Shown: positions 8,743-48,441 of the stretch, piece by piece
Layout of the letters: the number at the start of each line of letters is the position of its first letter
Position numbering within the stretch: position 1 is the first letter of the stretch
Assembly (NCBI GenBank): GCA_016782865.1
Contig: JADHXR010000009.1
Coordinates: forward strand, 1 to 64,000
Source of the DNA: Phycisphaerae bacterium
GTDB taxonomy: Bacteria; Planctomycetota; Phycisphaerae; Sedimentisphaerales; Anaerobacaceae
Length of the DNA: 64,000 bases
Reading direction: 5' to 3'
Made by a program: the position numbers and the translations under genes
Notes under the pieces: model-generated
Databases searched by the model: none
What the model was told of the DNA's origin: nothing
Seen by the model: only the letters and a program-made list of their open reading frames with translations

Positions 8743-9169
8743 GTTAGTGCTCCTATTTATAATAAGAATTTTGCAAAAGTTCAGTTATAATTTAGATAAA
8801 GGGTAATCATGGACAAAGAACAGCTTTCACTGACAAAAGGGATAGTGAGCCTCCTGTATATATACTAGGGGTACATAGGGGGGTCAACGCTTAAGATAGA
8901 GTTAAGCGACTTCTTTAAGCCAATCGTGACTAAGTGCTAAAATACTCATGATTCCAATTCATTAAAAGGACATTGCAGCGATCGTTTCCATTCATAGTTA
9001 CATGGCAAACCGCCTCTTCATCGGCTATACGCAATGCTTGGGCTATGACAGCAACTACAAAACAATCAGGGGCATCAGACAAGCATTATCTTATAACTGG
9101 AGGGCTAGCCCCTCATGTCCTCGGCCCCTCATGTCCTCCCCTCATGTCCCCCCAATTTAATCTGTGCTT
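8743..9169. other. Intergenic region holding repeat copy A
   Basis: No gene seen. The first ~150 bases are AT-rich and hold the likely promoter of the ceramidase-like gene. The rest is the ~230-base repeat listed separately, followed by short iterations of cccctcatgtcc (9111-9150). Confidence 0.5.
8891..9120 (-). repeat. Repeat copy A: degenerate REP-associated transposase head
   Basis: First of three near-identical direct copies (also 9925-10142 and 12383-12605). On the minus strand the copies read close to LRIADEEAVCHVTMNG.DRCNV, which resembles the conserved start of REP-associated tyrosine transposases (LRIEYEGAVYHVTSRGN...). Nothing of the catalytic part follows. All copies end in the same cccctcatgtcc string. 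The copies bracket gene groups of the island. Confidence 0.75.
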
Positions 9170-9409: not shown

Positions 9410-9552
9410 AATCCCCAGTCATCTTGATAGGGTTTGTTTGTTTTTGTATCGCATAACGCGAAACTCACCGGACGGAAAAAGCGGTAGCTTTATCCGGTCT
9501 GAGTGACATGTTAGGAAAAATGTTACGAATTACGGCACTTTTAGGGCTCCTT

Positions 9553-9840: not shown

Positions 9841-10276
9841 GCTATTCTCGATTAGGACCTTAACTCGCGGAAACAGGTTGTGTCAATCGGGCGCTTCCCC
9901 GGATGCTGGGCAACCCTGGGGGTCCTTAAAATAGAAGTTAAGCGACTTCTTTAAGCCAATCGTGACTACGTGCTAAAACACTCATGATTCCAATTCATTA
10001 AAAAGACATTGCAGCGATCGTTTCCATTCATAGTTACATGGCAAACCGCCTCTTCATCGGCTATACGCAATGATCGGACTATGACAGCAATTAAAAAACA
10101 ATCAGGGGCATCAGACAAGCTAAGGGCTGGCCCCTCATGTCCCGGTGACCGGGTTTTGCCGGGCATGCCAAACCAGCATCAAGCGCGAAAAGAATAGTCA
10201 TAGGTTGAATGACTTTCAACCCAGGAAGGGAGCGGCAAAACTCCGGTCGATGCGCTTGTTAGGTGCTGGCCCGCGC
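9841..10276. other. Intergenic region holding repeat copy B
   Basis: No gene seen. It contains the second repeat copy and, after it, about 130 bases with no recognisable feature before the end of the SIR2-family gene. Confidence 0.5.
9925..10142 (-). repeat. Repeat copy B: degenerate REP-associated transposase head
   Basis: Second direct copy of the ~220-base repeat. It differs from copy A by scattered substitutions and lacks the short segment gcattatcttataac just before the shared cccctcatgtcc end. The minus-strand reading is again LRIADEEAVCHVTMNGNDRCNV. Confidence 0.75.
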
Positions 10277-12343
10277 CTAGAAGTAGTAGTCGTTGTCGAC
10301 GTAGTCCTCTGGATCCGACATGCCGAGGGCCCGCATTGCCTCCACTGCTCGTCGTCTCGAAGCGGATGATGACTCCACGCCGAGTGCGTTGCGTTCGACG
10401 CGGTATTCGGCGACTCGGAGCCAAGCGATTCCTGGCTTTCGATCCATCAGTGCCTCGTCCAGTCGACGCACTTCGGCGAGGTGCATTTCCGCGGAACCGG
10501 TTTCGTCCAGGTCCGAACAGACGCAAGCCAAATACCAGGACTGTACGGCTACCTCCACGAGGTCCCCGCCTTGTTGCGCACCCGCAAGGGCCGATTGAAG
10601 GTGCCTCATCGCACTTCTGAGGTTTCGCTCCCGGTCGTCGGCAGGACTCGAAGCGGCCAACCTAGCGCAGGACCGGCCGAGCAATGAATCCTCCCAGTAC
10701 TCTCTGTTGCGCTTGGCCAATAGCGACTTGATGACGTCGGGTAGGTTCGCAGGGGTCATGTACCGCAGCTTTGCTTGATAGCTCGATTCACCCTCACCGT
10801 CGGCGCTCGAGTAGCGCTCCAACCAATCGCGGAGTTCATGATGTCGACGAGTCCAGAAAAACACCCACAGGAGACTGCGGAGAAGCGGCCGAAATACGAC
10901 CGAATCATCCGGAGTAGACTGCACGGCGGGCTCCGCGATCGTCACCCAATCTAGCCATTGCGCCTCCTGTTGGAAGTACTTAATGACCCGATGGAGACGT
11001 TGCGGATCGTCTCCTATCAGAACACTCCACCCTTGTGGATATCGCAGGACGGAAACCAGCGTGTTGTGGTACTCGCGAATAATGTCTTTGTGATGCGCCG
11101 TTAGATAGCGTGGCTTTTCGTCAACGGGGATGGTCTCGAGCCGGTACCGGAGCCAAGTGGCCACGCGCTTGTAGTCTTCTGGAGTGGGCTCGGGCTTGGG
11201 GGCTGCGCAGGTCAGCTTCCCACCTATTGCTTGCCCAAGAAGCCGGTAATGTGCCTTTGAGAAACGGAGGTCCTTCTCTGCGCAGAGCGTACTGAAGGCG
11301 TTGAGGTCCACGGGGTCCTCGAATGTGGCCAAGAGACGGGTAGCCTCTTCCAACTCCAGTGGAGGAGCGGAACTCGGCGCCGACGAAGATTTGAACTTGC
11401 CGGAGCGATGCAGTCTCTGGAGAACTAGCGAGGACACCGAACTGGCGGCGGAAGACGAGTCCACCTGATGGACGAGGCAATAGAGGCTCATCAGTAGATA
11501 CCCAAGTTCCTGAAAGTCATTGGCCTCGGAGACGCGAACCAACTGGACATTGTACTTACTGGCGTACACGTTCGCTTCGAGATCACAAGTCTCCTTTTCA
11601 CCAACGACTGCATACATGGTAGGACATCCACGATTATACAGATGATAGCGGTCCTCCAAGAATCGACGGAAATCCTTGTCGTGGAGAGAGAACCCCATGG
11701 CAAGAATGGTATACCTACCGAATAGTTGAGCCAAGAGCCGCGGATATCGCTCGTCGCGCATCAGCGCGTAGTAGTCCGAGGAGGTTACGACCAGATTGGA
11801 GGTGTGTTTTCGGACGCAGCCATGGAGCTTGAGCACGAAGCGTCGTGACGGCTCGGTTCGGAAGCTCGTGCTCGCAACGGCTTCATTGAAGTCGACGACG
11901 CGGGGTTCGTGGCGGTCGAACACCGACACATAGTCCTCTATGGCCGTGTCGTAGTTGGTTGTCCAGAATCCCTGAAACGGCAATGCTGCGAGTAATGCGT
12001 GGGTCAGCGAGACAGGTGGAGTGGGAGTCCAGCGGAAAATCTCGCGGATCCGTGTCGCGAAGACATCTGGTTGTGTGGACCGTAGAACCTCGGCGACCCA
12101 GTCGAGGTGGGAAGACTGGTCCACCCACCTCTCGGTCTGGTCACGGTTTCCCCAGGTACTAGCAACGATTGCGGCTTTGAGTTGCTGGATTAGCGCTGGC
12201 CAGGAGGGCATCCCGAGAGGGATGGACATGCCTGATCCGACTAGGGCGACCACTGCCCTGTCGCGGAGTCTTGAGAGTAGATCAAGGGGAACAGCGGCTT
12301 CTCGAGCGCGGTGTAGGCCTGAATCGATGGGGGTGGATGACAT
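10277..12343 (-). CDS. SIR2-family (SIR2_2) protein with helical C-terminal region, probable defence NADase
   Basis: A 688-residue protein. Residues 30-290 form a SIR2-like domain: GSGMS (36-40) for NAD binding, TTNYD (128-132) with the conserved Asn, KLHG (172-175) with the catalytic-type His, and GFSLHDKDF near 217. The CxxC zinc pairs of protein deacetylases are absent, as in the SIR2 domains of anti-phage proteins such as ThsA and DSR, which break down NAD. A Ser-rich linker (about 293-325) leads to a long region that looks alpha-helical and may hold TPR-like repeats, a possible sensor. No partner gene adjoins it; it lies alone between repeat copies B and C. Its base composition is visibly more GC-rich than the HD gene nearby. 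The NADase role is inferred from the family. Confidence 0.8.
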   Translation of the reverse strand: MSSTPIDSGLHRAREAAVPLDLLSRLRDRAVVALVGSGMSIPLGMPSWPALIQQLKAAIVASTWGNRDQTERWVDQSSHLDWVAEVLRSTQPDVFATRIREIFRWTPTPPVSLTHALLAALPFQGFWTTNYDTAIEDYVSVFDRHEPRVVDFNEAVASTSFRTEPSRRFVLKLHGCVRKHTSNLVVTSSDYYALMRDERYPRLLAQLFGRYTILAMGFSLHDKDFRRFLEDRYHLYNRGCPTMYAVVGEKETCDLEANVYASKYNVQLVRVSEANDFQELGYLLMSLYCLVHQVDSSSAASSVSSLVLQRLHRSGKFKSSSAPSSAPPLELEEATRLLATFEDPVDLNAFSTLCAEKDLRFSKAHYRLLGQAIGGKLTCAAPKPEPTPEDYKRVATWLRYRLETIPVDEKPRYLTAHHKDIIREYHNTLVSVLRYPQGWSVLIGDDPQRLHRVIKYFQQEAQWLDWVTIAEPAVQSTPDDSVVFRPLLRSLLWVFFWTRRHHELRDWLERYSSADGEGESSYQAKLRYMTPANLPDVIKSLLAKRNREYWEDSLLGRSCARLAASSPADDRERNLRSAMRHLQSALAGAQQGGDLVEVAVQSWYLACVCSDLDETGSAEMHLAEVRRLDEALMDRKPGIAWLRVAEYRVERNALGVESSSASRRRAVEAMRALGMSDPEDYVDNDYYF

Positions 12344-12382: not shown

Positions 12383-12605
12383 ATAAGATAGAAGTTAGGC
12401 GACTTCTTTAAGCCAATCGTGTAAGCGCTAATATACTCATGATTCCAATTCATTAAAGAGACATTGCAGCGATCGCTTCCATTCATAGTTACATGGCAAA
12501 CCGCCTCTTCATCGGCTATACGCAATGCTCGGACTATGACAGCAACTACAAAACAATCAGGGGCATCAGACAAGCATTATCTTATAACTCTGGCCCCTCA
12601 TGTCC
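12383..12605 (-). repeat. Repeat copy C: degenerate REP-associated transposase head
   Basis: Third direct copy, between the SIR2-family gene and the radical SAM gene. It is closest to copy A, including the gcattatcttataac segment. Minus-strand reading LRIADEEAVCHVTMNGSDRCNV. Confidence 0.75.
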
Positions 12606-12631: not shown

Positions 12632-13546
12632 CTACGTAGGGCATAGTTGCTTGGCTTCACTAAGTACCAAGCATTTGGCTTCTCTGTCGTGATGATCAAA
12701 AATGGATTTGACTTGAGCGGGCTGTAAGACGGAGCCCATTTTATGCCAAGCCAAAGCCTTAACGCCTGGGCATGGATAGATATCACCGCTGGTTGTAATA
12801 TGAAAAAAGGTTTTTCCGCCCAGGCAATTACCCTCTGCGTCAGAATGCGAACACCAGTTCGCCCCTGACAGCCCCGCAAGCTCAACTGCAATCCTGTGCT
12901 CCGAGGAAAGCTTCTTCGCTTTTGCAATGATGGCTTCTTCACACTCCCTGGAGACCTCCAGGCTGTCCCAGTTCAAAGCTGCACGGCCTTGCCTTGCAAG
13001 ACCTAGTACTCTAACCTTACGGACTCTGTGATCAGCAGCAAAACTAAAAACATCTCCCAAGTGTGCCGCGCTCTGCTTGTTCAAGACATAATTGAGATCG
13101 AGAACAAGGCCGGCCTCATTTATAGCCGTTATAGTCCTTTGTATGGTTGCGAAAGAATACTCTGGCCCAAAAAGATCTCTGCACATGTCTGGCGAAACTC
13201 CGTGCAGGCTCAGGCGTACAGATCTTAACCCACAGGAGGATAGATTGTTCCAGTATTCCTGCCCTGTCTCGACACTGCCGGATGTGCAAAGGATCATTTC
13301 ATCTGCCTTGGAATTCCATATCTCTATTATCTGTGCCAAGTCAGTGCGCAGTAATGGTTCCCCGCCGGATACAACAACTGTCATCATCTGCCTATACGAT
13401 TGCTTAGCGAACTGCATGAAATCCAAACAGGCGTTTGCGATATCGAATGGCATCTGTGCCATAATTGGATTTGCATTTGTAGAGCAAAAAGAGCAATTCA
13501 ACTTGCACTCATAGGTTACATCGACAGTAATTTCGGATTTAGTCAT
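12632..13546 (-). CDS. Radical SAM protein with SPASM-like C-terminal cysteines
   Basis: A 304-residue radical SAM enzyme. The CxxxCxxC cluster motif is CKLNCSFC (residues 14-21 from the chosen ATG), followed by VVSGGEPLLR (SAM-binding GGEP) and a TIM-barrel-like core. The C-terminus has GNCLGGKTFFHITTSGDIYPCPG and two later cysteines (AKCLV, QLCPT), resembling a SPASM or twitch domain that holds further Fe-S clusters. The ATG at 13546 overlaps the stop of the HD-domain gene by 8 bases, so the two are translationally linked; a TTG start 15 bases earlier is possible. The substrate is unknown. Viperin-like enzymes lack this cysteine-rich C-terminus, so it is unlikely to be a plain viperin. Its HD/thymidylate-synthase-like partner suggests a nucleotide substrate, though peptide modification remains possible. 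Confidence 0.85.
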   Translation of the reverse strand: MTKSEITVDVTYECKLNCSFCSTNANPIMAQMPFDIANACLDFMQFAKQSYRQMMTVVVSGGEPLLRTDLAQIIEIWNSKADEMILCTSGSVETGQEYWNNLSSCGLRSVRLSLHGVSPDMCRDLFGPEYSFATIQRTITAINEAGLVLDLNYVLNKQSAAHLGDVFSFAADHRVRKVRVLGLARQGRAALNWDSLEVSRECEEAIIAKAKKLSSEHRIAVELAGLSGANWCSHSDAEGNCLGGKTFFHITTSGDIYPCPGVKALAWHKMGSVLQPAQVKSIFDHHDREAKCLVLSEAKQLCPT

Positions 13547-15455
13547 TGTTCCAGGCCTCAAGCAATTTAATCACTCCCTGAACAGTTTTCTTTTTCTCAG
13601 TAATCATCTTACTGGGGATTGGAAGAGCAGGATGCTCCGAGATTTGCCTCAATGCTCCTTTCATCTCCCCAATCGCCTGCTTTAGGGGGGCACATTTTCC
13701 ATTTGGCAGACTCTTCTTGAGCGTAGAACACCACTTGTACTCCGTCTTAATAAACGTCCTAGATACAACTTCTCTTAGCATGCCCATCAATGCTTCTCTT
13801 TTCCCCATGTTTTCAATGTTCTGGCCAAAGTCGCCGATAGAGAGTTCATCCAGCCGGCAAATTTCAGGCATGTCGAACAATGTTGTATCCTTGTCAAAGT
13901 ACGCAAGGCTTGTGGTCATGATAATTCTACCGTGTTTTAATGAAAGCTTCGCTGCTATCTGTTCAACCAATTTCTTCAATTCAAAGTAGTTTACCAGAAA
14001 AAACGTGCTCATTTCCTGAGAACGGAGGAAAGCGAACGCCGACAATTTGTTATTTGCCTCTATTCGGAAGTGTATAGCAATTAATGCCGGCTGCACAATA
14101 CTCTCGTTGTGGAATGCATCATCCTTGTTGCTGTTGTCAATAATTGGATGGGCAATAACAACGTATGCACGGCGAGCATGTTTCTTGTCCTCACCAAGAA
14201 TTCTTTCGACAGACTTGAATTGTTCTCTCTTACCCGTCCATGTGTAGAAATTCTCGTTTCTCAGGTCATTCGGTATTTTGGGGTACATGTATTTGTGAAT
14301 ACGCTGCCCATGGGTGTAACCAAAATAGAAACGCTTTGCTGCATCGGGCCCATCGTCCAACCAGAATTTTGTATACTCCTTGATCTTGTCGAGGTTAAGC
14401 TCGTGGTTGTTTCTTACAGTAATCTTCTCGGCCTCATCTTGGTCGATGTTCCTAATCTCAACAAGCAATGGGCCGAAGTAGTGTTTGAATTGTGCCTGGC
14501 CTTTAACAAGCTTATTCTGAAAGGCTTCGACGATGCTTTCGTAGGCTTCGTAAAGAGTGTTTGTGGAAATCTGAAGGGGGCACTTTCTGTCTTTGAGATC
14601 AAGTGATAGACCACATCTGCCCAAATCCTCATTGGATAGGGTTGCACGACAACTTGGATTCTTCGCTTCCTTGGTAATCAGTATTTCTGAGGGAAGTCCG
14701 AAAGCCTGCAGAAGTAACTTATGCTTACTTAGGTCTTCGTTCGCAAGGTTTTTGGCCTTCTCAACTTGTTTGTTCTCTTCTCGTACAACCCATTGTATGT
14801 GATCTCGGCGTATGATAGTCTTCTTGATCTGTTCTCTTGCTTCTACTTTTGCTGGACGGTTTTCCTTCCGTACTGTGCCGGGGGCTCTCCCCCTGTCGGG
14901 ATCTGCATCAGAAATGTCAGCAACCCAGAAAAGCAGACAAAGAAAAATGTCACCAGGGCGGACCTGGTTTGCTCTAAAAGGTGAATGGAGTATAGCCGCA
15001 GAGTGGAATGCGATTATATTGCACATCAGCTTAACTCCATCAGTGCGCAGGCCAAAAAACTTCAGCGCGTCCGCCTGTTTCTGCTCTACATAGTGAGCAG
15101 ATCTAACACCATGGTCGCAATTTTGATCTGAGAAGAGCAAATTGCTTTTGCATAAGAGTTCTTCAATTTCTCTAATTATCGCAGGGTCGCTGGATTTAGA
15201 GATATCATGAAGTAAAGACGCATACAAGAGGACGAGGCGGTCTGATTGGGACAGCTTCCGGCCAGTTTTATCTGCTATTGCTTTGCAGTGCTGTACGACT
15301 CTGAAGGAATGATCGATGTCGTTGGCGTCGGTATTTGCCCTGAGAACATCAAAGGCGTAATTCAAGGGAGAATGCGCATCAGACAGGAGTGTCTCGCGCA
15401 TAGTACTTGACAATTTTCCAATTTGGTTTAACATGCTTCGCTTCGTTACAGCCAT
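13539..15455 (-). CDS. HD phosphohydrolase fused to a thymidylate-synthase-like domain
   Basis: A 638-residue protein. Residues 40-190 hold an HD domain with the expected metal ligands: His49, His83-Asp84 (LLHDISK), His115 or His121, His151 and Asp180/Asp183. Residues about 375-525 align by eye to thymidylate synthase: YFGYTHGQRI; a REQF...ILGEDKKHARRAYVV segment matching DQ...LK.DP.SRR; QPALIAIHFRI where ThyA has PC; LRSQE where ThyA has RS.D; an Asn at 489; SLAYF where ThyA has HxY. Arg429, Arg478, Ser479, Asn489 and Tyr519 are kept, but the catalytic Cys is Ala457 and the His is Leu517. This suggests a nucleotide-binding domain that cannot methylate by the normal route. The C-terminal 110 residues are unassigned. 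The stop overlaps the radical SAM start. The combination is not one I recognise as a named system. Confidence 0.75.
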   Translation of the reverse strand: MAVTKRSMLNQIGKLSSTMRETLLSDAHSPLNYAFDVLRANTDANDIDHSFRVVQHCKAIADKTGRKLSQSDRLVLLYASLLHDISKSSDPAIIREIEELLCKSNLLFSDQNCDHGVRSAHYVEQKQADALKFFGLRTDGVKLMCNIIAFHSAAILHSPFRANQVRPGDIFLCLLFWVADISDADPDRGRAPGTVRKENRPAKVEAREQIKKTIIRRDHIQWVVREENKQVEKAKNLANEDLSKHKLLLQAFGLPSEILITKEAKNPSCRATLSNEDLGRCGLSLDLKDRKCPLQISTNTLYEAYESIVEAFQNKLVKGQAQFKHYFGPLLVEIRNIDQDEAEKITVRNNHELNLDKIKEYTKFWLDDGPDAAKRFYFGYTHGQRIHKYMYPKIPNDLRNENFYTWTGKREQFKSVERILGEDKKHARRAYVVIAHPIIDNSNKDDAFHNESIVQPALIAIHFRIEANNKLSAFAFLRSQEMSTFFLVNYFELKKLVEQIAAKLSLKHGRIIMTTSLAYFDKDTTLFDMPEICRLDELSIGDFGQNIENMGKREALMGMLREVVSRTFIKTEYKWCSTLKKSLPNGKCAPLKQAIGEMKGALRQISEHPALPIPSKMITEKKKTVQGVIKLLEAWNND

Positions 15456-16707: not shown

Positions 16708-17244
16708 TCACGGCGAATCTTTCTTTATAATCTCCTTCAGATCCGGATTGAGCAATTCCCATAGATGAGGATGGTTTTCCACCAAACGGGCAATGTCGCC
16801 AAGATCTTTGAGCTTTTTACTCTGTCTTCTATCCGTATCCATCCATGCTTTTGTCTTTCCATGCAAAGTGTCTTCCAGTGATGCGACCCGCATAAGAATG
16901 CCATGAATGTCTGCCGGAATTGAACGATCTGGAAACTCCTTGTAGAAGTCTTCCGTACTCAACTGAATACTGACTTTGGAATGACCACGAAAATTGACTG
17001 ACCATGGAAAACGTTCAGATCTGAATCCTGCTTCCTCCAGTAGTTTTACCGCAAGTTCTATCGATTCTGTTGCCACGACAAAATCAACATCTTGGGTCAC
17101 CATAGGTTCAACGGCCCAATGATTGACAGCCACGCCCCCGATAGCACACCATGCGATATCAGCTCGTTCGAGACAATCAACGAGCCGCATGACATCGTCT
17201 GTGCCACCTGCCGTCTGCCAGTCATAAAAGTGCTTTGGCGTCAT
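16708..17244 (-). CDS. Nucleotidyltransferase-fold protein, AbiEii/DUF6036-like
   Basis: A 178-residue protein with the pattern of minimal nucleotidyltransferases: AIGGVAVNHWAVEPMVTQDVDFVV, matching GG.A...........T.D(I/V)D with the two catalytic-type acids. The rest (LEEAGF, a VASLEDTLHGKTKAW segment with a conserved Lys, and DLGDIARLVENHP) fits the AbiEii/MNT-associated group. The ATG at 17244 has GGAG 7 bases upstream, better than the ATG four codons earlier, which overlaps that GGAG. No antitoxin such as AbiEi or HEPN is adjacent. It may be one half of a former toxin-antitoxin pair or a stand-alone enzyme; the role is inferred from the fold only. Confidence 0.7.
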   Translation of the reverse strand: MTPKHFYDWQTAGGTDDVMRLVDCLERADIAWCAIGGVAVNHWAVEPMVTQDVDFVVATESIELAVKLLEEAGFRSERFPWSVNFRGHSKVSIQLSTEDFYKEFPDRSIPADIHGILMRVASLEDTLHGKTKAWMDTDRRQSKKLKDLGDIARLVENHPHLWELLNPDLKEIIKKDSP

Positions 17245-17702
17245 ACTGTGCTCCATGTAAACATTCTTCTGCTGTCAATACCCGCTATCCTAACTTGAAT
17301 CCTATTCTTGACAACAGAAAACTGCTCAATTGCCGTTCATGTCGTGCAATGTCCTTAGCAGAGATGGCCCCAGGCCAACGATCCTTAATACCGTTGGATT
17401 CCCCCTTTAGGTTTCTTCTCTGACAAAATGCTGGATGAATCAGGGCAGACTAGTTACACTTCGACAAAAGGAAATCCCGGAATGATTCTCTTAGAGGGTG
17501 CTTCAAAAGTTGATCGTCGGCCCGAGCCCCCGCGGCGCTTGAGCGGAGAAGGGCTCGAGCGAAAAGCCCCAGGGCACGAAGGCCGAAGCAGGCGATGTTG
17601 GTTCTATCGTCGATGGAGGCCGACAAAGCCATGGGGCTTTGCAGCCGGGCGAAGCCAGAGCAACTTTTGAAACACCCTCTTACCAAACAGAGGGCAAGGA
17701 AA
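17245..17702. other. Intergenic region with MITE copy 1
   Basis: Divergent spacer between the nucleotidyltransferase gene and the beta-lactamase/DUF5060 gene. About 240 bases without a recognised feature are followed by the small inverted-repeat element, which ends only 23 bases before the ATG at 17703. The element therefore now forms the immediate leader of that gene. Confidence 0.6.
17494..17679. mobile_element. MITE-like element, copy 1 (186 bp)
   Basis: Begins gagggtgcttcaaaagttg and ends caacttttgaaacaccctc, 19-base terminal inverted repeats with one mismatch. It is flanked on both sides by TTA, a 3-base target duplication. The interior matches copy 2 at 37010-37168 almost throughout, apart from a segment of about 27 bases (17527-17553 region) missing in copy 2. 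It encodes nothing. Target duplications of TNA type and such ends are known for IS1031-like members of the IS5 family; assignment of the parent is inference. Confidence 0.85.
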
Positions 17703-45636: not shown

Positions 45637-45896
45637 ATTTTCTGCCATTTTCGGCGGCTGGCCAGCAAGCTAAACAGGAGAAAAATTATGATAGAAAAGA
45701 ATCCTACGAAGGTTGAATGCGTATGAGATATGCAGGACTTACCGATGAGCCGGAAAGAAAAAAACGGGAACATGGCAACCCTCACGACTTCAGAGTTATG
45801 CAGCAATTCACTTCCGAGACGTCTGCCAGGCAATGGGAAAGGAGTGTTTCAATGTTTCAAGGACCTTGCCTTATTCCTTAGTGCTAAATTATGGTT
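45637..45896 (+). pseudogene. Short ORF remnants after hsdR
   Basis: CAGGAG precedes a 12-codon frame (45688-45726, MIEKNPTKVECV), whose TGA overlaps an ATG at 45723. That second frame gives 52 residues (MRYAGLTDEPERKKRE...HDFRVMQQFTSETSARQWE...) before a stop at 45881. The RYAGLTDEPERKK...TSE..AR.WE pattern looks like a real small protein, but its last codons (FQGPCLIP) are made by the dispersed string ccttattccttag, so the gene is probably truncated there. I do not know the family. Confidence 0.5.
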
Positions 45897-45962
45897 ATGG
45901 CTATACCGATTCGTATCGAATATGAAGGTGCCGTGTACCATGTCAGTATTCGCGGCAATTAG
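45897..45962 (+). pseudogene. REP-associated tyrosine transposase N-terminal relic
   Basis: Reads MAIPIRIEYEGAVYHVSIRGN and then TAG. This is the standard opening of REP-associated (Y1/IS200-like) transposases. The catalytic HUH and Tyr motifs are absent downstream. The relic is closer to a functional sequence than the three island-1 repeats, and it sits next to the ccttattcc/ggtctgaccc strings that recur at 16011-16031. Confidence 0.85.
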
Positions 45963-46518
45963 CGGAGGGAATAAGGAAAAAGGTCTGACCCTGGATGGTT
46001 CTCTAAGCAAGCCCAGTGAATGGATTACCGGGAGCATAGAACGGCTCTTGGGACTTGTAAACGACGACAACAAGCCAAAGAAGTCCATACAGAAGGTGGG
46101 GGCTGAATTGAAGGATAGGCTGGAGACGGCCACATTGAATATTCGGCTATTCCTGGCCACCAAGGCGATCCTCGGCGCCGCCGCGGACGCTGTCGATCTG
46201 GACATTCCAGCCAAAGTCGGCATGCTGGCCGGCCCCAACACACGGCTTGGCGCGTTTATTGCCATTTCCAACATCCGACTGGAGGAACTCCACGAAGAGC
46301 GAAAATCATCGAGGTCAGGCGATACCCGGTTGGAAAAGGCCCTCAAGACGCTGCCGCCCATCGAGCCGGAGAAGCTCAGGCCGAGCACTGACTCCCTGAA
46401 GCAACTCAAGGACAATATCCTGAAAGACGCCAAGGGCGAGGAGTGGCTGCGGATAAAAGTTCGGTCGCTGGAATATGACGATGGCTTCAGTTTTAGGGAA
46501 GTGATACAAGATAGCTAA
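45940..46518 (+). CDS. Hypothetical protein, uncertain 5' end
   Basis: About 192 residues from an ATG at 45940. The part from 45990 onwards looks like true coding sequence: a helical, Lys/Glu/Leu-rich protein (SEWITGSIERLLGLVNDDNK...VGAELKDRLETATLNIRLFLATKAILGAAADAVDLDIP) with no family that I recognise. The 5' 50 bases overlap the transposase relic and the aaggaaaaaggtctgaccc repeat, so the original start has probably been lost or replaced. The open frame extends back to 45730 but through non-coding sequence. It lies 68 bases before the DUF5131 gene. It may be a broken C-terminal fragment. Confidence 0.45.
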   Translation: MSVFAAISGGNKEKGLTLDGSLSKPSEWITGSIERLLGLVNDDNKPKKSIQKVGAELKDRLETATLNIRLFLATKAILGAAADAVDLDIPAKVGMLAGPNTRLGAFIAISNIRLEELHEERKSSRSGDTRLEKALKTLPPIEPEKLRPSTDSLKQLKDNILKDAKGEEWLRIKVRSLEYDDGFSFREVIQDS

Positions 46519-46586
46519 GAAAACACTTTGATCTTGGACTTACCAGGTACTATATTCTTGATGTGTGTTCGTTGATAGGAGATTAG

Positions 46587-47342
46587 ATGGCTCAGGACTC
46601 AAAAATTGAATGGACTCAATCCACTTGGAACCCCGTTACCGGCTGCACGAAGACTAGCACTGGCTGCAAGAATTGTTACGCCGAGCGAATTGCACTGCGG
46701 CTGAAGGCAATGGGCAATCCCAATTACGCCGATGGATTTCGGGTGACCCTGCATCACCAGGCACTGGAGATACCTCTGCGATGGAAACAGCCGCGCACCA
46801 TATTCGTTAACTCTATGAGTGACCTCTTCCACGAAGATGTTCCCTTGGACTTCATCTCGGAGGTCTTTGACATTATGCGCCGGGCGTGTCACCATCGATT
46901 TCAAATATTGACTAAGAGATCCGGGCGTCTGATGGAACTAAGCCCGGAATTGCCGTGGGGGGAGAACATCTGGATGGGTGTTACGGTTGAAAACACCGAC
47001 CACACTTGCCGAATGAATGACCTCAGAGCCACTGACGCGGTAGTCAAGTTTGTGTCGTTCGAGCCACTTCTGGGGCCGATTTCGGATGTTGATCTTGAAG
47101 GTATCGATTGGGTGATAGTCGGTGGCGAATCGGGGCCCAGGGCAAGATTGATGAGAGGCGAATGGGCTGTTGAGATTCGCGATCAATGTCTTGTCGCAGG
47201 CATTCCCTTCTTCTTCAAGCAATGGGGCGGTGTAAACAAGAAGAAAGCCGGGCGCATCCTGGAGGAACGCACTTGGGATGAAATGCCCCACGAATTTGAG
47301 GCGGCGGCGCGAAGGGAAGTAGAAAGTGGAATCTCCGGATAG
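46587..47342 (+). CDS. DUF5131 / phage Gp37-Gp68 family three-Cys-motif protein
   Basis: A 251-residue protein of the family named after phage Gp37/Gp68. The hallmark is NPVTGCTKTSTGCKNCYAERIALRLK, with the three cysteines that define the three-Cys motif; this resembles an Fe-S or metal site, and some authors see a distant radical-SAM-like fold. Other family blocks: RTIFVNSMSDLFHEDVP, FQILTKRSGRL, NIWMGVTVENTD, VKFVSFEPLLGPI, DWVIVGGESGPRARLM and PFFFKQWGG. AGGAG lies 5 bases before the ATG. It overlaps the next gene by 17 bases, and this pair recurs in many mobile and defence regions. Its chemistry is unknown to me. Confidence 0.9.
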   Translation: MAQDSKIEWTQSTWNPVTGCTKTSTGCKNCYAERIALRLKAMGNPNYADGFRVTLHHQALEIPLRWKQPRTIFVNSMSDLFHEDVPLDFISEVFDIMRRACHHRFQILTKRSGRLMELSPELPWGENIWMGVTVENTDHTCRMNDLRATDAVVKFVSFEPLLGPISDVDLEGIDWVIVGGESGPRARLMRGEWAVEIRDQCLVAGIPFFFKQWGGVNKKKAGRILEERTWDEMPHEFEAAARREVESGISG

Positions 47343-48441
47343 TTTCTTTCAGCAGAAAAGACCTTGGTCGAAATACAAGGATCTGATTCTCGACTATTAT
47401 CTTGTCCCCTACCTGCAGAAGGTCAAGCTGCTGCGACGCCCCATTGTCGTTGTCGACTGTTTTGCTGGCCCTGGGAGATTTGATGACGGTCTGCCGGGAA
47501 GTCCCCTCATCATCGCGGAGAAACTGCGACCTTTGTGCGAAGGTGGTGCGAGAGTCTTGGGGCTATACATTGAGAAGAAGGCCCAACGGTACAAGCAGCT
47601 TGTAAGAAACACTGAAGGTTCTCCCATTCCCGTGAAAACACGTCACGGCGAGTTCAGAGATCACGTTGATGAAGTAGCGGATTTGGCAAAAACCTGCACG
47701 GTGTTCATCTACGCGGACCCTTTCAAGCCAAGCGATATTCTCTTTGATGACCTACGAGTTGTTTATGACCGCACGAAGAGTGGTTCCAGCATCGAAACGC
47801 TCATTAACTTCATGAGCTTCGGTTTCGTTCGAGCCGTCTCAGGATTACGGAGTCGCATAGTCACTGATGGTGTGGTCAGAGAAGATCACGAATTGACAGC
47901 CCGATGGGACAATGTTGCCGGTGGTACATATTGGCACAACATAGTCTTCGGGGCCTCTGGATCCGAAGATGACAAGGCCGACCAACTGGCAGCCAGTTAT
48001 TCGGAAAATCTTGCGCGATGGTTCAAATGGCGTCTATGGTGCCCAATCCGTGAGAAATATGCGGATAAGAATCCGAAGTACCATCTGGTCTTTGGCTCGC
48101 CGTCAGAGCACGCGGTTGACCTGATGAATCGTGCTATGGTCAAAGCCCGTCGCAAGTTCATTGAAGACGGATTCATCAAAGGCTTCCTCTTTCCAAATCA
48201 GCCTGAGAAAGAGGTATTCAACCTTGAGGAAGTCATAAAGCTTGTCCTCGCAACTGCAGGAGTAACAAACAAGGTATCTTGGAGGAAACTCCGATTGTGC
48301 ACAACAATGGCAAAGCCAGGGACATACACTGACTCTGAGTTCAATAGAGCCATTAAGGAGGCTATCCGAAGCGGCAGGTTGGGAAGCGATTGCCCGGGAA
48401 AGAAGATTGAGGATAACGCAGCTGTATGGCCGCTCAGATGA
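47326..48441 (+). CDS. tcmP: Three-Cys-motif partner protein TcmP
   Basis: A 371-residue protein that almost always accompanies the DUF5131 three-Cys protein, as it does here with a 17-base overlap. It starts at GTG 47326. Family pattern: RPWSKYKDLILDYYLVPYLQKV, VVVDCFAGPGRFDDGLPGSPLIIAEKL, VLGLYIEKKAQRYKQL and CTVFIYADPFKPSDILFDDL, then a long helical region with WKWRLWCPIREKY and YHLVFGSPSEHAVDLMNRAM. The DCFAGPG segment resembles the SAM-binding loop of class I methyltransferases, and the DPF segment sits where their catalytic motif would be; that comparison is inference. It closes the rightward block that begins with hsdM. Confidence 0.9.
   Translation: MESPDSFFQQKRPWSKYKDLILDYYLVPYLQKVKLLRRPIVVVDCFAGPGRFDDGLPGSPLIIAEKLRPLCEGGARVLGLYIEKKAQRYKQLVRNTEGSPIPVKTRHGEFRDHVDEVADLAKTCTVFIYADPFKPSDILFDDLRVVYDRTKSGSSIETLINFMSFGFVRAVSGLRSRIVTDGVVREDHELTARWDNVAGGTYWHNIVFGASGSEDDKADQLAASYSENLARWFKWRLWCPIREKYADKNPKYHLVFGSPSEHAVDLMNRAMVKARRKFIEDGFIKGFLFPNQPEKEVFNLEEVIKLVLATAGVTNKVSWRKLRLCTTMAKPGTYTDSEFNRAIKEAIRSGRLGSDCPGKKIEDNAAVWPLR

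Follow-up and report, generated by a model that had tools for sequence, protein, structure and literature searches.

A two-gene locus coding for an HD hydrolase/pseudo-thymidylate synthase fusion and an overlapping radical SAM enzyme: a possible nucleotide-sensing system

Among the described systems that come closest to the locus studied here, the CMP hydroxymethylase MilA is part of a nucleoside-antibiotic pathway, and in nucleoside-antibiotic clusters an enzyme of the MilA type occurs together with a radical SAM enzyme. Thymidylate metabolism, for its part, is often altered by phage enzymes, so that a thymidylate-pool sensor would be a logical trigger of defence. HD enzymes that respond to nucleotides are also known in defence: Clover consists of the HD dNTPase CloA, which is controlled by thymidine nucleotides, and the nucleotidyltransferase CloB (PMC12265719). 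The locus described here lies in a 64,000-nucleotide window (the whole stretch of DNA analysed) from a Phycisphaerae genome of 7.25 Mb in 240 contigs (84% complete), and it brings together an HD domain, a thymidylate synthase (TS)-like domain and a radical SAM enzyme. The initial annotation knew of no named system with this set, and we found no whole match to the combination in Pfam, NCBIfam, PADLOC, PHROGs or the literature searched. The fusion of HD and pseudo-TS is a new domain architecture, each domain kind being already known.

The upstream gene of the pair (13539..15455, minus strand) is an intact open reading frame with an ATG start that codes for 638 amino acids, exactly as first reported; its product is referred to here as HD-TS. 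The sequence of the N-terminal part allows a firm assignment to the HD metal phosphohydrolases, since it passed the PF01966 cut-off (E=1.3e-7; 32.4 bits against 22) and carries the H...HD...D ligands. The core of the domain spans residues 46 to 188 (14892..15320, minus strand, the range also matched by PF24391) and includes H49, H83-D84, H115, H151, D180 and D183. H49, H83, D84, H151 and D180 were invariant in an alignment with six other HD proteins, which upholds the ligands originally proposed (His49, His83-Asp84 and Asp180). A separate structure model of the HD region was weak (mean pLDDT 57), and its best neighbours were HD-superfamily hydrolases at Z scores of about 7 to 8 (YqeK-type proteins, SP1746 with dTMP or GDP, and PPX/GppA), values too weak for the substrate to be named from structure. 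Foldseek with this model gave no match below E 0.5, dGTPase and SAMHD1 appearing only at E above 1, and a PDB sequence search with HD-TS returned nothing useful.

The C-terminal part of the protein is firmly assigned to TS. It matched the profile of the methanogen-type TSs (TIGR03283) over residues 296 to 516 with E=1.3e-15, in agreement with the TS-like domain claimed at the outset, although the domain extends over about residues 293 to 528 (13872..14579, minus strand) and not 360 to 530. The TIGR03283 score was 57.5 bits against a family cut-off of 174.55 bits, and PF00303 matched weakly as well (E 0.11; 12 bits against a cut-off of 24.3). In a 22-row alignment of HD-TS with 21 TSs, including TSs from other planctomycetes, the catalytic cysteine (C146 in Escherichia coli) was present in 21 of the 21 TSs and replaced by Ala457 in HD-TS, just as had been claimed. 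The partner histidine is also gone, but its position is not Leu517, as first proposed; it aligns with Tyr519 when counted ungapped from Gly509, or with Ala518 if one gap is allowed, and thus Tyr519 is probably not the TS tyrosine (Tyr209) that it had been taken for. Depending on that one gap, H207 and Y209, the His/Tyr pair close to the C-terminal strand, correspond to Tyr519/Asp521 or to Ala518/Phe520.

Other TS residues are retained, namely ARR (427-429), R478-S479, N489 and G509, the motif RSxD being changed to RSQE (478-481). A second alignment, of HD-TS with E. coli ThyA, T4 dCMP hydroxymethylase and the RB69 dCMP-hydroxylase homologue, placed Asn489 at the Asn of the uracil-binding TSs and not at the Asp of the dCMP enzymes; Asp occupies the equivalent position in T4 gp42 and in the RB69 enzyme. 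Some of the N-terminal phosphate contacts of TSs (the E. coli Arg21 region) were not evident in the HD-TS alignment. In a tree, the domain fell on the TIGR03283 side, at a position that the tree did not resolve, and its branch was very long, at 4.79 changes per site. A further TS-like protein of 488 amino acids, with a long N-terminal extension, was seen in another planctomycete; it keeps the cysteine, has RAHN for RSxD and has lost the His/Tyr pair (SISIR).

The fold was checked by modelling full-length HD-TS with AlphaFold, with TSs as the input alignment. The central TS blocks were confident (10-residue mean pLDDT of up to 96 within residues 290-520) and much of the remainder was poor. The top-ranking structural neighbours of the modelled TS domain were a phage dCMP hydroxylase (9iqu; Z 21.3, 203 residues at 2.7 A), MilA (Z 19.4) and TS (Z 17-18). 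Because the input alignment was made of TSs, this agreement with the proposed fold is partly circular, and it supports the assignment without independently proving it; at the sequence level, the TIGR03283 match provides the independent evidence.

The downstream gene (12632..13546, minus strand) codes for 304 amino acids from the ATG at 13546, or 309 from an upstream TTG at 13561. The claimed overlap of its start with the HD-TS stop is exact, comprising the 8 bases ATGACTAA (13539..13546, minus strand). Its radical SAM core is intact, with a PF04055 match (1.4e-15), CX3CX2C at C14, C18 and C21, and SGGEP. Thus, the description as a SPASM-like radical SAM enzyme was right about the core and only partly so about SPASM, since PF13186 matched at positions 1 to 43 of 67 and below its cut-off (15.8 against 21.5 bits). 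The only cysteines of that region are C241, C259, C292 and C302, which do not make up a complete auxiliary-cluster motif. The best models for this protein were PqqE (TIGR02109, 1.2e-22), MoaA (6.9e-19) and SPASM maturases, all of them below their cut-offs, and the best database matches were PqqE proteins at 26-30% identity. The PADLOC pVip models also matched (3.7e-12) but were outscored by PqqE and MoaA, and viperin was not adopted as the assignment.

Both genes have a GC3 of 0.49, while the surrounding carbohydrate and SIR2 genes have values of 0.63-0.72, and therefore the pair looks acquired. Other neighbours with low GC3 are orf95 (0.39) and an AbiEii-like gene (0.44). Another contig of the same genome encodes a normal TS (locus L014) that has both the Cys and the His, and ThyX was not found in this 84% complete assembly; HD-TS is therefore not the thymidylate source of the genome, and a housekeeping-TS role was rejected.

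Relatives of either gene were sought widely. Protein searches found the HD-TS fusion in none of 148 relatives, 392 genomes of the phylum, 397 of the class (these three sets overlap) and 237 archaeal genomes, nor in two further archaeal genomes, plasmids, phages, viral contigs or pattern scans of genome contigs. What these searches retrieved were Cys-bearing TSs (loci L002/L042, L040, L041 and L043-L047) and two weak archaeal matches (L075 and L076). Some of the scan alignments had non-motif residues varied to focus the patterns, and others had canonical TSs mixed in; as the pattern scans demand near-exact matches of 7 to 10 residues, distant homologues could be missed. For the radical SAM protein, 246 genomes of the phylum yielded no relative at E 1e-15, and searches elsewhere gave only PqqE-like and other SPASM-type genes. 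By sequence comparison, both genes thus appear as orphans in the sets searched.

We tentatively favour, at less than even confidence, a reading in which the pair is a horizontally acquired operon for an HD hydrolase gated by a pseudo-TS domain that binds pyrimidine nucleotides, with a co-translated radical SAM partner in the same pathway. The HD part would act as a metal phosphohydrolase on a nucleotide, a dNTP or a nucleotide-type phosphoester. The pseudo-TS part, in which the phosphate- and pyrimidine-contacting ARR, RS and Asn489 are present and the chemistry of Cys and His is gone, would bind a nucleotide of the dUMP/dTMP type, as Asn489 in place of the Asp of dCMP enzymes suggests, and would gate or feed the HD active site. 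The radical SAM enzyme would make or alter that same nucleotide, or modify a partner protein.

Several observations point to this gating of the HD hydrolase. The profile match and the Z scores of 17 to 21 indicate a TS fold whose nucleotide contacts were kept despite the loss of Cys and His, the HD ligands are intact, and the best neighbours of the HD model are nucleotide or phosphate hydrolases. The genes overlap, thymidylate can come from the canonical TS elsewhere in a genome in which ThyX was not found, and CloA offers the precedent of an HD dNTPase with thymidine-nucleotide gating. Against this, the reading is weakened by the failure to find a homologue of either gene, by the partial circularity of the TS model and the weakness of the HD model, and by the incomplete SPASM region and the N-terminal phosphate contacts of which some were not evident in the alignment. 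The gene pair may nevertheless be a nucleotide-sensing enzyme system. A bolder version, that this is a new nucleotide-based system, possibly antiviral, in which the dead TS senses the thymidylate pool or a pyrimidine made by the radical SAM enzyme and switches the HD nucleotide hydrolase, is in our judgement unlikely. If the gating reading is right, TS, among the best-studied enzyme folds, would have been reused as a regulatory domain tied to hydrolysis and to radical chemistry, and the single fusion protein would provide a concrete test bed, with ligand and HD activity directly assayable.

The main rival to gating is that the TS-like part is still an enzyme with another chemistry, of the flavin-dependent dCMP-hydroxylase (AfhB) or MilA type, that it modifies the base and together with the radical SAM enzyme produces an altered pyrimidine nucleotide or nucleoside metabolite, and that the HD part is a phosphatase. 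The dCMP hydroxylase (9iqu/9iqc) and MilA do stand slightly ahead of TS in the structural ranking, RSQ is common to HD-TS and the phage hydroxylase, and the pairing of MilA-type and radical SAM enzymes in antibiotic clusters counts in the same direction. However, the RB69 homologue (EYPCTD) and T4 dCMP hydroxymethylase both keep the cysteine that is Ala457 in HD-TS, Asn489 stands in place of Asp, and the operon is devoid of further genes for biosynthesis, transport or resistance. We regard such a base-modifying role as doubtful.

The neighbourhood makes a defence role possible. The next gene after the radical SAM gene, on the same strand, codes for a SIR2_2 protein of 688 amino acids with ThsA1/LmuA model matches (10277-12343, minus strand; GC3 0.66), the AbiEii-like gene (16708-17256) lies 1.25 kb upstream of HD-TS and outside the operon, and 23 kb away from the pair, at 38.6-45.6 kb, there is a type I restriction locus that includes a GmrSD-like gene. 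One could thus envisage an operon in which the HD enzyme depletes dNTPs or cuts nucleic acid or a signal nucleotide upon infection while the pseudo-TS senses the thymidylate pool, with a logic like that of Clover or of the bacterial dGTPases. The foreign base composition of the pair agrees with this, and nucleotide-gated HD defence is known (Clover, PMC12265719). But the SIR2 gene differs from the pair in GC3 and is separated from it by a repeat, the flanking genes belong to carbohydrate metabolism, HD-TS had no PADLOC match, and no homologues were found in other defence islands, which leaves this version with a low probability.

The SIR2_2 protein stands alone and is itself a possible defence effector. 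Directly after the type I restriction locus, in which the GmrSD/DUF5655 gene lies between HsdS and HsdR, a DUF5131 radical SAM mobile-pair-like protein (TIGR04471) adjoins the three-Cys-motif partner TcmP (45730-48441). The remaining genes examined are mostly of carbohydrate metabolism or without assignment, and Rfam gave no match across 8-18 kb of the window.

The repeat mentioned above, of about 220 bp, has three copies in the window (8892-9120, 9918-10142 and 12384-12605), which are 88-92% identical and flank the SIR2 gene and a 95-aa ORF. The rest of the genome adds four matches that are weaker or partial (at loci including L006, L007 and L008). At L008, a related copy accompanies an intact gene for a 333-aa Y1_Tnp (RAYT-like) transposase, whose start the repeat resembles; the repeat thus seems to be a piece of the 5' portion of such a gene. 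It begins 27 bp past the stop of the radical SAM gene, whose product ends in CLVLSEAKQLCPT, so the 3' end of that gene may have been trimmed; the gene could be damaged, because its second auxiliary-cluster motif is incomplete. An alternative is that the locus is decaying or a mere passenger, an old HD-TS with a degenerating TS part beside a trimmed radical SAM gene. The long branch of the TS domain, the incomplete SPASM, the adjacent repeat and the lack of relatives found all agree with it. On the other side, 638 and 304 codons are free of stops, and random decay would not have spared the HD ligands, ARR, RS, N489, CX3CX2C and GGEP, every one of which is intact; decay is thus disfavoured and in our view improbable. 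Least probable of all is a RiPP-type or PqqE-like role for the radical SAM enzyme, in which it would mature a peptide or protein and be an incidental neighbour of HD-TS. Its closest models and database matches would suggest this, but the 8-base overlap and equal GC3 tie it to HD-TS, and neither a precursor peptide nor a gene for a PqqD-like partner was seen in between the pair or next to it.

Traces of an integron were also observed. The genome contains an integron integrase (TIGR02249, 333 bits, over the curated cut-off; contig C172, 7600-8403, locus L077) and also several short fragments of the IntI C-terminus. Immediately past the 95-aa ORF there is an attC-like hairpin (9451-9516, minus strand), and a similar one with the same end, GCGTTATGC, is present on contig C93 (L080, 6239-6306), while ten shuffles of the window gave 0 such hairpins. 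The SIR2 gene and the 95-aa ORF may be integron cassettes, the site after SIR2 (10195-10277) being doubtful. For the HD-TS/radical SAM operon a cassette origin is unsupported, as the radical SAM gene is not followed by any site of the attC kind.

Returning to gating by a pseudo-TS and to the known systems, the radical SAM protein shares with PqqE and the SPASM enzymes the radical SAM core and the beginning of SPASM, and differs from them in its low identity, in its incomplete C-terminal cluster motif and in that PQQ genes were not seen alongside. MilA has the TS fold and aligns with the TS domain at a Z of about 19, but has no HD fusion. The phage dCMP hydroxylases AfhB and RB69 ORF048 (PDB 9iqc and 9iqu) are the best structural match and share RSQ, whereas the RB69 enzyme, at 23% identity, keeps the Cys, has Asp at the base-recognition position and lacks an HD domain. 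With the methanogen-type TSs, HD-TS has in common the fold and the order of its blocks, along with SRR/ARR, RS, Asn and the Gly ahead of the last core strand, and differs by Ala457, the absent His, RSQE, the HD fusion and its score far below the family cut-off. In Clover, an HD enzyme is likewise under thymidine-nucleotide control; it consists of two genes, a dNTPase and an adjacent regulatory Pol-beta nucleotidyltransferase, and has neither a TS-like domain nor a radical SAM partner, while the partner of HD-TS is a radical SAM enzyme and the nearby AbiEii-like gene is not part of the operon. Clover is thus best taken as an analogy and not as a family to which the locus belongs, and CloA as a possible functional analogue of HD-TS.
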